In this document: in pieces, positions 7,834 to 45,365 of the stretch
Layout of the letters: every line of letters begins with the position of its first letter
Position numbering within the stretch: the stretch's first letter is position 1
Assembly: GCA_018821925.1 (NCBI GenBank)
Contig: JAHJLF010000039.1
Location: 1-63,719 of the forward strand
Source of the DNA: Candidatus Edwardsbacteria bacterium
GTDB lineage: Bacteria > Edwardsbacteria > AC1 > EtOH8
Direction of reading: 5' to 3'
DNA length: 63,719 nucleotides
The notes under the pieces: model-generated
The model's database searches: none
Told to the model about the DNA's origin: nothing
Seen by the model: only the letters and a program-made list of their open reading frames with translations
Position numbers and translations under genes: made by a program

Positions 7834-7855
7834 TCTGGCGGAGAGACTGGGATTT
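7834..7855 (-). pseudogene. Broken 3' copy of tRNA-Ser
   Basis: These 22 bases are identical to the 3' end of the intact tRNA-Ser at 7949-8036 (bases 7947-7968): the 3' T-stem strand, acceptor strand, discriminator base and CCA. The copy lies 113 bases downstream of the intact gene on the same strand. The sequence on its 5' side is an unrelated hairpin-forming element that begins directly after a GGTTC, the T-loop start. Confidence 0.7.
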
Positions 7856-7909
7856 TACGCCCGAGGCGCATCCGCCGCCGCTTTGCAGATATGCCTTACA
7901 ACAGGCGGA
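7856..7909 (-). repeat. Hairpin element interrupting the T loop of a tRNA-Ser fragment
   Basis: About 54 bases lying, on the minus strand, between GGTTC (7910-7914) and the tRNA-Ser 3' remnant. It opens with TCCGCC and contains AAAGCGGCGGCGGAT, so its first ~39 bases can fold with TCCGCC pairing to GGCGGA. The first ~40 bases align with the element at 43983-44059, which occupies the same T-loop position in a tRNA-Gln fragment. Confidence 0.55.
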
Positions 7910-7948: not shown

Positions 7949-8036
7949 TGGCGGAGAGACTGGGATTTGAACCCAGGATACCTTGCGGTATACACGCTTT
8001 CCAGACGTGCTCCTTCGGCCACTCGGACATCTCTCC
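7949..8036 (-). tRNA. tRNA-Ser (anticodon GGA)
   Basis: An 88-base gene with a perfect 7-bp acceptor stem (GGAGAGA/TCTCTCC), discriminator G and encoded CCA. The anticodon loop is TCTGGAAA between CACG and CGTG, giving anticodon GGA. The long variable arm TATACCGCAAGGTATC is typical of serine tRNAs, and the T arm is CTGGGTTCAAATCCCAG. Confidence 0.95.
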
Positions 8037-43603: not shown

Positions 43604-43685
43604 ATTGATATAAATTTCCGGACCGGGAAACCGACGGTTGACAGTAGGTCGTCGCGTTCCTTGCTGTTATGCAGGGAACATCTCC

Positions 43686-43826
43686 ATGCGGCTTACTTAT
43701 AGCTTGACTATTACAAGCAGCCTGTTGTCAGCTTTTTTATTGCCCGGGGCACTACTTGCTAAAGCAGGGCATCAAATAGCAGACACCATTAACCACGAAG
43801 ACACGAAGTTTATTAAAACCCCGTAA
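43686..43826 (+). pseudogene. Possible 5' remnant of a secreted-protein gene
   Basis: A 46-codon frame with a signal-peptide-like start (MRLTYSLTITSSLLSAFLLP, then GALLAKAG) and an AGGGA 9 bases before the ATG. From residue ~35 it runs into a dispersed ACCACGAAGACACGAAG repeat, giving the tail NHEDTKFIKTP. It could be a gene cut by that repeat, or chance. No homologue is recognised. Confidence 0.25.
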
Positions 43827-43915
43827 TCAATGTTGCTTGGATTAGTAACCACGAAAACGCTACTACTATTTCCCGTTTTTTGATTTCCTATTTTAGCCCT
43901 GTATCGTTGTTGTAT

Positions 43916-43982
43916 ATAAAAATATTCGGGGGTCGTCCAATTGGCAGGACACCAGCCTTTGGAGCTGATACACCTTGGGTTC
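43916..43982 (+). pseudogene. Broken 5' copy of tRNA-Gln
   Basis: Fifty-three bases (43916-43968) are identical to 44312-44364: the 5' flank ATAAAAATATTC plus the first 43 bases of tRNA-Gln through the anticodon arm. The sequence then diverges slightly (TACACCTT) and reaches GGGTTC, the T-arm start (43977-43982), where a 77-base element breaks it. GAGTCCCT, the other half of the T arm, resumes at 44060. Confidence 0.8.
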
Positions 43983-44059
43983 TCCGCCGGTTGGAATGAT
44001 ACAAGTAAAGCGGCGGCGGATCTGCCGTCGCTCTGCTACAAAGCTTGTCTGCCGGCAGA
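43983..44059 (+). repeat. Hairpin element interrupting the T loop of the tRNA-Gln copy
   Basis: Seventy-seven bases between GGGTTC and GAGTCCCT. It starts TCCGCCGG and ends CCGGCAGA, imperfect terminal inverted repeats. The first ~40 bases, including AAAGCGGCGGCGGAT, align with the element at 7856-7909 that sits at the same place in a tRNA-Ser fragment. Confidence 0.55.
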
Positions 44060-44072
44060 GAGTCCCTAAAAA

Positions 44073-44315
44073 ATGCCATATTTTGTTTATATTTTAAAAA
44101 GTGTCTCTTTAGGCACCAGATACATCGGTTCTACAGCCAATATTGAACAACGGATAAAAGAGCATAACAGCGGTAAATGCACCTATACCAGAAACCGAAG
44201 GCCTTGGGTCCTGATTTACAAAGAAGAATTCCCCAATCTTTCGGAGGCCCGAAAACGCGAAAGATATTTCAAGACCGGCCAAGGCCGGGAGTTCATAGAT
44301 AAAGTAATAGGATAA
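44073..44315 (+). CDS. Small single-domain GIY-YIG nuclease
   Basis: 80 residues, the whole protein being one GIY-YIG domain of the UPF0213/YhbQ type: YFVYILKS (GIY part), TRYIGSTANIEQRIKEHN (YIG plus catalytic Arg) and NLSEARKRERYFKTGQGREFI (acidic helix with the Glu). It lies between a broken and an intact tRNA-Gln. Its ATG is five bases after the T-arm remnant and its stop is inside the 53-base repeat. Such proteins are structure-selective or homing-type endonucleases; a role in having produced the tRNA duplication is inferred. Confidence 0.85.
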   Translation: MPYFVYILKSVSLGTRYIGSTANIEQRIKEHNSGKCTYTRNRRPWVLIYKEEFPNLSEARKRERYFKTGQGREFIDKVIG

Positions 44316-44321
44316 AAATAT

Positions 44322-44396
44322 TCGGGGGTCGTCCAATTGGCAGGACACCAGCCTTTGGAGCTGAGAACCAGGGTTCGAGTCCCTGCCCCTGAGCCA
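44322..44396 (+). tRNA. tRNA-Gln (anticodon TTG)
   Basis: A 75-base gene. The acceptor stem is TCGGGGG/CCCCTGA (one G-T pair), the D arm GTCCAATTGGCAGGAC, the anticodon loop CTTTGGA with anticodon TTG, and the T arm CAGGGTTCGAGTCCCTG; CCA is encoded. prs begins 30 bases downstream. Confidence 0.95.
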
Positions 44397-44426
44397 TAAT
44401 TAAAGATATTTGGTAAGGATCTAACA

Positions 44427-45365
44427 ATGAACGGTGAGTTGAAGGTATTCTCCGGAACCGCCAATCCCGATCTGTCGATAGATATCGGCCGGGAGCTGGG
44501 CCAGGCCTTGGGCGAATGCACCATCGGAAGGTTCTCCGACGGTGAGATCCGGGTCCAGATCAACGAGAACGTTCGGGGCACCGATGTGTTCATCCTCCAG
44601 CCCACTTTCATGCCGTCCGACAACCTGATGGAACTGCTGATCCTGATGGACGCCGCCCGCCGGGCCTCGGCCAAGCGGATCACGGCAGTCATCCCCTATT
44701 TTGGTTATGCCCGGCAGGAACGCAAGGACATGCCCCGGGTGCCGATCTCGGCCAAACTGGTGGCCAACCTGATAACCGTAGCCGGCGCCCACCGAATACT
44801 GACCATGGACCTGCACACCGAGGCCATTCAGGGGTTCTTCGATATCCCGGTGGACCACCTCTATGCCTCGCCGGTGCTGATCAAGCATTTCCAGCAGTTG
44901 GGGGTCCAGGATTTTGTGGTGGTGTCCCCCGATACCGGCGGCGTCAACCGGGCCAGGGCCTTTGCCAAGCGGTTGGGTGACCTTCCCCTGGCCTTCATTG
45001 ACAAACGACGGCCCGGGCCCAACAAGATCGAGGTGCTGAATATCATCGGAGAGGTGGCCGACAAGAACTGCCTGATCGTCGACGATGTCATGGACACCGC
45101 CCGCACCATCTGCGAAGTGGCCGGCATATTGAAGCAGAATGGAGCAAAATCCATCTACGCCACCGCCACCCACGGGGTGTTGTCCGGCCAAGCCATAGAA
45201 TCCATCGCCGAGGCCCCACTCACCGAGGTGGTTCTGACCAACACTATCCCCCTGCCGCCGGAGAAACGGATACCCAAGATCAAGGTGCTTTCCATATCCA
45301 AGCTCCTGGCCGATGCCATCAAGCGGATCCACAACGAAGAGTCCGTCAGCAGCCTTTTTAACTGA
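44427..45365 (+). CDS. prs: Ribose-phosphate pyrophosphokinase
   Basis: 312 residues, making PRPP from ribose 5-phosphate and ATP. Motifs: FSGTANPDLSIDIGRELG, FSDGEIRVQINENVRG, MDLHTEAIQGFFDIPVDHLYA, VVVSPDTGGVNRA and the PRPP loop DDVMDTARTI. It opens the translation-related run rplY-pth-rpsF, a widely conserved order. AAGGA precedes the ATG. Confidence 0.96.
   Translation: MNGELKVFSGTANPDLSIDIGRELGQALGECTIGRFSDGEIRVQINENVRGTDVFILQPTFMPSDNLMELLILMDAARRASAKRITAVIPYFGYARQERKDMPRVPISAKLVANLITVAGAHRILTMDLHTEAIQGFFDIPVDHLYASPVLIKHFQQLGVQDFVVVSPDTGGVNRARAFAKRLGDLPLAFIDKRRPGPNKIEVLNIIGEVADKNCLIVDDVMDTARTICEVAGILKQNGAKSIYATATHGVLSGQAIESIAEAPLTEVVLTNTIPLPPEKRIPKIKVLSISKLLADAIKRIHNEESVSSLFN

Follow-up and report, generated by a model that had tools for sequence, protein, structure and literature searches.

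In the window, that is, the whole 63,719-nt stretch of Candidatus Edwardsbacteria DNA that was analysed here, a gene for a small nuclease lies between two copies of tRNA-Gln, only one of which is complete. How could a protein-coding gene come to lie inside a tRNA gene without destroying it, and what has brought it there? Our answer, which we hold to be probable, is that the locus belongs to a widespread family of minimal mobile elements, in which a free-standing homing-type GIY-YIG gene resides inside genes for structured RNAs, above all tRNA, and restores its target.

Organization of the interrupted tRNA-Gln locus

We observed a direct repeat of 53 nt (43916-43968 and 44312-44364) that is 100% identical, with a spacing of 396. 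A perfect repeat of this length made of tRNA sequence is far beyond chance. The neighbours of the locus in the window, on both sides, are the core genes ispE, spoVG, prs, rplY and pth, and its features are as follows.

43926..43982 (+), pseudo-tRNA: original 5' part of tRNA-Gln, from the acceptor 5' strand to GGGTTC of the T-arm, with the native 5' flank attached
43983..44059 (+), hairpin module of 77 nt in the T-loop (RNA fold -33.4 kcal/mol, z -2.8)
44060..44067 (+), GAGTCCCT: what is left of the T-arm 3' side, following the hairpin, from the sequence and its alignment to the tRNA
44073..44315 (+), ORF of 80 aa for a stand-alone GIY-YIG nuclease (PF01541, E 2.7e-17)
44312..44321 (+), ATAAAAATAT: 10-bp copy of the native 5' leader before the restored tRNA, overlapping the ORF stop
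44322..44396 (+), restored intact tRNA-Gln(UUG) (ARAGORN; RF00005, 56.2 bits)
43983..44376 (+), net insert of 394 bp, by comparison with the empty alleles L024, L025 and L026

The upstream copy matches the intact one over nt 1-43 (100%), and its 5' flank, TATATAAAAATATT, is common to the window and the sister genome G002. Past the end of the repeat (nt 43) there are 8 diverged bases, after which the copy resumes with GGGTTC (43977-43982), the hairpin and GAGTCCCT; therefore, we placed the break in the T-loop of tRNA-Gln, at GGGTTC/GAGTCC. This split copy has no 3' acceptor strand and scores below threshold as a tRNA (18.5 bits vs the Rfam gathering value of 29). The hairpin module is built of two halves, 43983-44020 (TCCGCC..GGCGGA) and 44021-44059 (TCTGCC..GGCAGA), and is predicted to fold as a single long extension of the T-arm.

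In the restored tRNA-Gln, nt 1-55 are supplied by the element, and nt 56-75 are native and continue into the native 3' flank, which is homologous to the empty sites. The insert consists of the hairpin module, the T-arm remnant, the ORF, the leader and tRNA nt 1-55. One junction of the insert carries the hairpin module, which is GC-rich, whereas the downstream junction is seamless, since the tRNA half that would be missing is supplied by the insert and a complete tRNA results. The split copy has the native 5' flank and the restored copy the native 3' flank, and therefore the arrangement fits an insertion into the tRNA gene.

The repeat, the 80-residue protein with its stop inside the second repeat and the intact tRNA-Gln downstream had all been recognized in the preliminary description, and they were confirmed. 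The same description took the repeat for the 5' flank and 5' half of the tRNA, which holds for the repeat, whereas the broken copy runs past nt 43 to the T-loop. Its proposal of a cassette of ~396 bases that restores the tRNA was borne out by the empty alleles as far as an insertion with a replacement 5' part is concerned, but the size is 394 and the break lies in the T-loop. The view that the unit holds the nuclease and the repaired target end alone had to be given up, as a structured hairpin module is also carried.

The GIY-YIG gene is the only ORF; we found no tyrosine or serine recombinase in the 394-bp insert, and no HUH/Y1 transposase at the locus. An integrase-borne island was ruled out by the insert without recombinase and by the core genes on either side. 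An Rfam scan of 43700-44450 gave no intron match, group I core included, and we accordingly rejected both a group I intron and a known RNA family as explanations of the locus; the ORF sits between two tRNA copies, outside any intron or intein.

Filled and empty alleles in related genomes

The orthologous locus was found through the downstream prs gene in ten genomes of the family. Three of them (G003, G004 and G005) have one uninterrupted tRNA-Gln at this site, and these are the empty sites with a single tRNA-Gln that the preliminary description had sought in sister genomes. The site is filled by the ORF at the identical T-loop point in G000 and G001, of the same genus, and in G009, of another genus. 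The upstream copy of G009 equals the restored copy over nt 1-55, and upstream in G001 there is additionally the 3' remnant of another unit. In G002, which is without the ORF, a hairpin occupies the T-loop and the 3' end of the tRNA is present twice. At two further loci (L028 and L029, in G007 and G008), we noted repeated tRNA-Gln 3' ends together with the downstream flank, placed 3' of tRNA-Gln and broken by a different GC-rich hairpin.

Empty and filled alleles were also found for tRNA-Ala(GGC) of Leeuwenhoekiella (Flavobacteriaceae). In L. polynyae (G010), an insertion of 306 bp at nt 22, in the D-loop, carries the hairpin CCCGCCCGAACGTACCTTTTCGGTACGGGCGGG, and the stop codon of its ORF lies within the restored tRNA. 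The tRNA-Ala of G016 is uninterrupted, with flanks 93-96% identical to those of G010; two other genomes (G017 and G020) are filled, and most other Leeuwenhoekiella examined are uninterrupted. Presence/absence polymorphism with uninterrupted target alleles, as in homing genes, is thus observed directly, and from the distribution of the alleles we infer that the polarity is one of insertion and not of precise loss.

Association with tRNA genes

Seven stand-alone GIY-YIG genes are present in the genome of the window, and the four nearest relatives within it lie at most 55 bp from tRNA-Gln(TTG), tRNA-Gln(CTG), tRNA-Asn and tRNA-Phe (p ~2e-7). In a collection of bacterial and archaeal genomes, we took the best 80 of 304 loci, a sample that leans to Gln-type relatives. 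The phyla among these best 80 of 304 include Patescibacteria lineages, Bacteroidota, Ignavibacteriota, Elusimicrobia, Omnitrophota and others. A tRNA gene lies within 50 bp in 61 of these 80 loci and within 200 bp on the same strand in 71, and among the tRNA-adjacent loci of this best-80 set the nearest tRNA is always on the same strand.

A partial copy of the same tRNA was found across the ORF in 49 of the 69 testable loci, where it outscored every control tRNA of another isotype. With few exceptions, this copy holds the 5' end of the tRNA when the intact tRNA lies 3' of the ORF, and the 3' end when the intact tRNA lies 5' of it. The expectation that other nuclease copies would stand beside tRNAs with a 5' duplication was therefore upheld with regard to the partial copies of the same tRNA, but the mirror-image form duplicates the 3' half instead.

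When 198 Bacteroidota genomes were drawn evenly, 128 of them had matches to the family, and a single genome contained as many as 22 copies. Among further Bacteroidota loci, 13 of 22 lie within 200 bp of a tRNA on the same strand, and when five genomes were searched whole, this was true within 100 bp for 13 of 27 copies. Hardly any credence can be given to an assembly artefact, or to the coincidence of an ordinary housekeeping GIY-YIG gene standing beside a tRNA that chanced to duplicate. GIY-YIG genes are indeed common and some copies sit away from tRNAs, but in dozens of independent genomes, among them named isolates (Leeuwenhoekiella, Muriicola), the association reappears on the same strand and with junctions of the same logic. 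Chance or artefact was ruled out by this recurrence.

Phage and plasmid records gave only UPF0213-like matches, and close relatives are nearly absent from them; in IMG/VR, one of seven loci (L066) has a pseudo-tRNA bearing a hairpin. On these grounds, phage or plasmid cargo was ruled out.

Sequence, structure and evolution of the nuclease

The protein belongs to the GIY-YIG superfamily by its PF01541 match and by the main catalytic positions, Y6, Y17, G19, R27 and E63, which are all kept. Among 50 relatives, Y6, Y17 and G19 are invariant, and R27 and E63 are at least 90% conserved. The AlphaFold model (pLDDT 94.9) is a bare GIY-YIG catalytic domain, and neither the domain match nor the predicted structure of the 80-aa protein showed a separate DNA-binding module of the I-TevI/Seg type. 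Its structural neighbours are UPF0213 BH0048 and SLX1 first and I-TevI next; 1zg2, 1ywl and SLX1 are the best structure matches, and 1zg2, which is the top Foldseek match and has a profile E of 1.8e-15, places the protein with UPF0213 in fold and sequence.

The dN/dS of the ORF is 0.08-0.24 between close genomes (0.20 for the window copy vs G001), and therefore the protein is under purifying selection. Between G000 and G001, the synonymous divergence of the GIY-YIG gene at the window tRNA-Gln is 0.99 vs ~0.15-0.31 in four flanking genes (Fisher 1.5e-6). A similar value was obtained for the gene at tRNA-Gln(CTG) (0.71, p 2.5e-4), and the gene at tRNA-Phe was not significant. Such an excess over the neighbours would be expected of a mobile gene and not of joint vertical descent, and relaxation of codon bias could contribute to it.

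In a tree of 93 loci, the tRNA isotype requires 44 changes vs 70.4 after shuffling, and 0 of 200 shuffles were as low, in a test that takes no account of shared vertical descent at the same tRNA. Same-isotype protein groups span phyla for Cys, Leu, Val and Ser.

Isotype-specific association and altered tRNA copies with extended arms would also suit a protein that acts on RNA, i.e. a tRNA-cleaving toxin or regulator tied to its target tRNA, for which the altered copies serve as decoys or guides; tRNA-targeting systems such as Septu have been published. We consider this very unlikely, as GIY-YIG enzymes are established as DNA nucleases, the locus has no partner immunity gene, empty alleles are tolerated and PADLOC matches are marginal. 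The marginal PADLOC matches also led us to reject a defence system.

Hairpin modules and ORF-less derivatives

The position of each insert was obtained by aligning each intact tRNA to its broken copy. We observed that 44 of 64 inserts are in the D-, anticodon- or T-loop (p 5e-9 vs an expectation of one-third) and that their predicted folding is more stable than that of their own shuffles (median z ~ -3). A recurrent design is a pair of adjacent 15-nt hairpins, each with a 6-bp stem and a 3-nt loop, whose stem sequences vary. When perfect pairing was required, 15 such twin hairpins were found in 229 kb vs 0.0 in shuffles, and all 15 are near GIY-YIG ORFs, in or beside tRNA copies.

In the genome of the window, 15 of 19 TCCGCC..GGCGGA hairpins (36-41 nt) have a tRNA no more than 400 bp away, although such tRNA-proximal sequence makes up just 1.4% of the genome. 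When its 45 tRNAs were all surveyed, 16 had a nearby partial self-copy, and about nine of these are tRNA 3'-end copies of 19-20 nt, starting from the T-loop, with no ORF. One such solo derivative lies in the window, downstream of tRNA-Ser(GGA).

7949..8036 (-), tRNA-Ser(GGA) with the ORF-less (solo) derivative downstream, from the tRNA call and the self-copy survey
7871..7909 (-), solo hairpin TCCGCC..GGCGGCGGA after GGGTTC, of the same family as 43983-44020
7836..7855 (-), exact second copy of the 20-nt tRNA-Ser 3' end (T-loop to CCA), from the sequence

Inverted copies of tRNA segments were also seen at some solo loci.

It could be argued from these data that the hairpins, as palindromic repeats, are the primary mobile units, which enter the loops of RNA genes by an unrelated route, and that the GIY-YIG protein is a passenger or an SLX1-like resolver of hairpin DNA. 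The hairpins that lack an ORF and accompany exact 3'-end copies of 19-20 nt at about nine tRNAs in this genome, the proximity to tRNAs of 15 of the 19 hairpins of 36-41 nt and the structural closeness of the protein to SLX1 and UPF0213 agree with this, as does the RNase P RNA gene described below, where a perfect inverted repeat flanks the ORF inside a hairpin. We nevertheless regard it as quite unlikely, since the protein clades follow the tRNA isotype and are under purifying selection, unlike a passenger.

Two ordinary KRGGTLYIGVTSDL-like GIY-YIG genes of the same genome (L006 and L007) are not at tRNAs but lie between dispersed palindromic repeats, TCATTCCTGCGAAGGCAGGAATCC and TCATTGCGAG..GAAGCAATC. 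This suggests that small GIY-YIG genes are linked to palindromes more widely.

Tandem arrays and loci at other RNA genes

Arrays of 2-8 head-to-tail units, each an ORF with a hairpin-bearing tRNA fragment, were found in Bacteroidota (L274-L291) with a period of ~315-475 bp. G079 has one array of eight units and another of three before tRNA-Arg, G196 has five units after tRNA-Met, and G158 has three before tRNA-Ser. Every unit has its own hairpin-bearing tRNA part, and where a complete tRNA was found, it was at one end of the array.

The uniform periods of these arrays bear on a further explanation, namely that a tRNA-adjacent nuclease cuts and thereby provokes local tandem duplication, so that the partial tRNAs are debris, the hairpins are products of fold-back synthesis and the unit itself does not transpose. 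In favour of such repair scars and amplification, the units carry along a duplicated 5' leader or 3' terminator, inverted tRNA-segment copies occur at some solo loci, and amplification of a tRNA segment driven by the phage enzyme SegB has been published. However, the first entry of the ORF into an empty tRNA gene is left unexplained, and so are the precise loop junctions with a conserved hairpin design across phyla and the divergence of the ORF in excess of its same-site neighbours. We judge this explanation unlikely, though it would not greatly surprise us, and prefer the insertion of a mobile element that carries its own nuclease.

At three loci of Bacteroidota (L293, L294 and L300), the ORF lies inside the RNase P RNA gene (rnpB). 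Both flanks complete P1 and P2, an inverted repeat forms a P3 stem whose loop the ORF occupies, and there is no duplication. In L300, another helix of that RNA contains a shorter palindrome whose core, GCACATAAC..GTTATGTGC or near, is the same. Of two further GIY-YIG copies, L284 and L093, one adjoins a tmRNA and one adjoins a group I intron.

Relation to known systems and a possible mechanism

SegB is a free-standing GIY-YIG homing endonuclease of phages that cuts inside tRNA genes at RAWTSGAAC and drives the tandem amplification of a tRNA segment (Chihara 2026, PMC13096335). T-even phages have other free-standing GIY-YIG homing endonucleases besides SegB (Brok-Volchanskaya 2008, cited in PMC2988022). 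The reverse complement of its motif, GTTCSAWTY, reads like a T-loop and is close to the junction in the window. Both SegB and the present family are free-standing GIY-YIG genes among tRNA genes; in phages, the distance from SegB to tRNAs is often less than 1 kb, and several homing genes of T4 are preceded by hairpin structures. SegB, a phage protein encoded between tRNAs, is larger, whereas the family described here has 80-100 aa, is chromosomal and nearly absent from phage and plasmid records, and sits inside the tRNA gene, with loop hairpins and a restored copy of that gene. Phage SegB is the closest known relative and functional precedent. The homing-type reading is preferred because this precedent cuts inside tRNA genes at a T-loop-like motif.

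Some observations count against homing: the restored tRNA retains the presumed target sequence beside an active gene; the protein is a catalytic domain with no I-TevI-type DNA-binding module; hairpin modules occur without the ORF; and the nearest solved relatives, UPF0213 and SLX1, are not homing enzymes. UPF0213/YhbQ-type proteins and SLX1 have the same minimal catalytic domain, but UPF0213 has no described tRNA-nested context with a duplicated target, and SLX1, unlike the present family, is a eukaryotic structure-specific nuclease with a partner.

A complete restored tRNA with a partial copy at the other end, as found here, is also what tyrosine-recombinase integrative elements at tRNA att sites leave. 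In contrast to those elements, the units have no integrase, total ~300-400 bp, carry a hairpin module at the junction and may duplicate either the 5' or the 3' tRNA half. REP elements with RAYT (Y1) transposases and the Rickettsia palindromic elements are small GC-rich hairpins with autonomous and ORF-less copies that are tolerated in RNA loops; the present family differs from these in having a GIY-YIG nuclease and no HUH/Y1 transposase, and in being strongly targeted to the loops of tRNAs. With group I introns in tRNA anticodon loops, too, tRNA genes are the targets of GIY-YIG-linked mobility, but the window locus has no group I intron, and the interrupted copy is replaced by a second intact tRNA instead of being spliced.

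A homing-type element of this kind might operate as follows. The nuclease would cut a loop sequence of uninterrupted tRNA genes, and the break would be repaired by recombination, in the course of which the element and one half of the tRNA are copied in. With its hairpin, the split copy would then no longer be a target, and the restored tRNA would keep the host alive and permit repeated insertion, giving tandem arrays. Hairpin-only copies could be either non-autonomous derivatives or scars left by repair. The ORF is probably expressed from the tRNA promoter; the hairpin may label the site of cutting and render the old copy immune, may serve as a binding site for the nuclease, or may keep ORF expression low.

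We group the family with free-standing homing endonuclease elements, and there is a substantial chance that it deserves a class of its own. Tentatively, and with somewhat less than an even chance of being right, the ORF and the loop hairpins could be taken as a new class of transposable element for structured-RNA genes (tRNA, RNase P RNA and possibly tmRNA), with ORF-bearing autonomous and hairpin-only non-autonomous forms. Its nuclease would recognize the hairpin loops of RNA genes, as folded DNA or as loop sequence, and every insertion would rebuild its gene, making an essential gene a safe and renewable landing site.

No description of chromosomal tRNA-nested GIY-YIG cassettes was found in the literature searched, which lay mostly outside subscription papers, and the family of tRNA-nested minimal mobile elements is apparently undescribed. 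If our reading is true, a very large share of bacteria carries mobile elements, just 300-400 bp long, whose invasion of essential tRNA genes the host survives, a scale based on the Bacteroidota genomes sampled and on the tRNA context in many candidate phyla. It would also account for the palindromic hairpins and broken tRNA copies seen close to tRNAs, carry the link between phage SegB and tRNA over to chromosomes, and provide small isotype-matched nucleases whose target choice is directly testable.

An RNA-like segment upstream of the locus

Between spoVG and the tRNA-Gln locus, we noted an RNA-like segment of ~109 nt (43637-43745, +) with a T-run at its end. It is conserved in nine genomes of the family and has no credible match in Rfam. 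In an alignment of seven sequences, 9 of 32 predicted pairs are changed on both sides with pairing kept, and the segment is a candidate for an undescribed structured RNA or attenuator.
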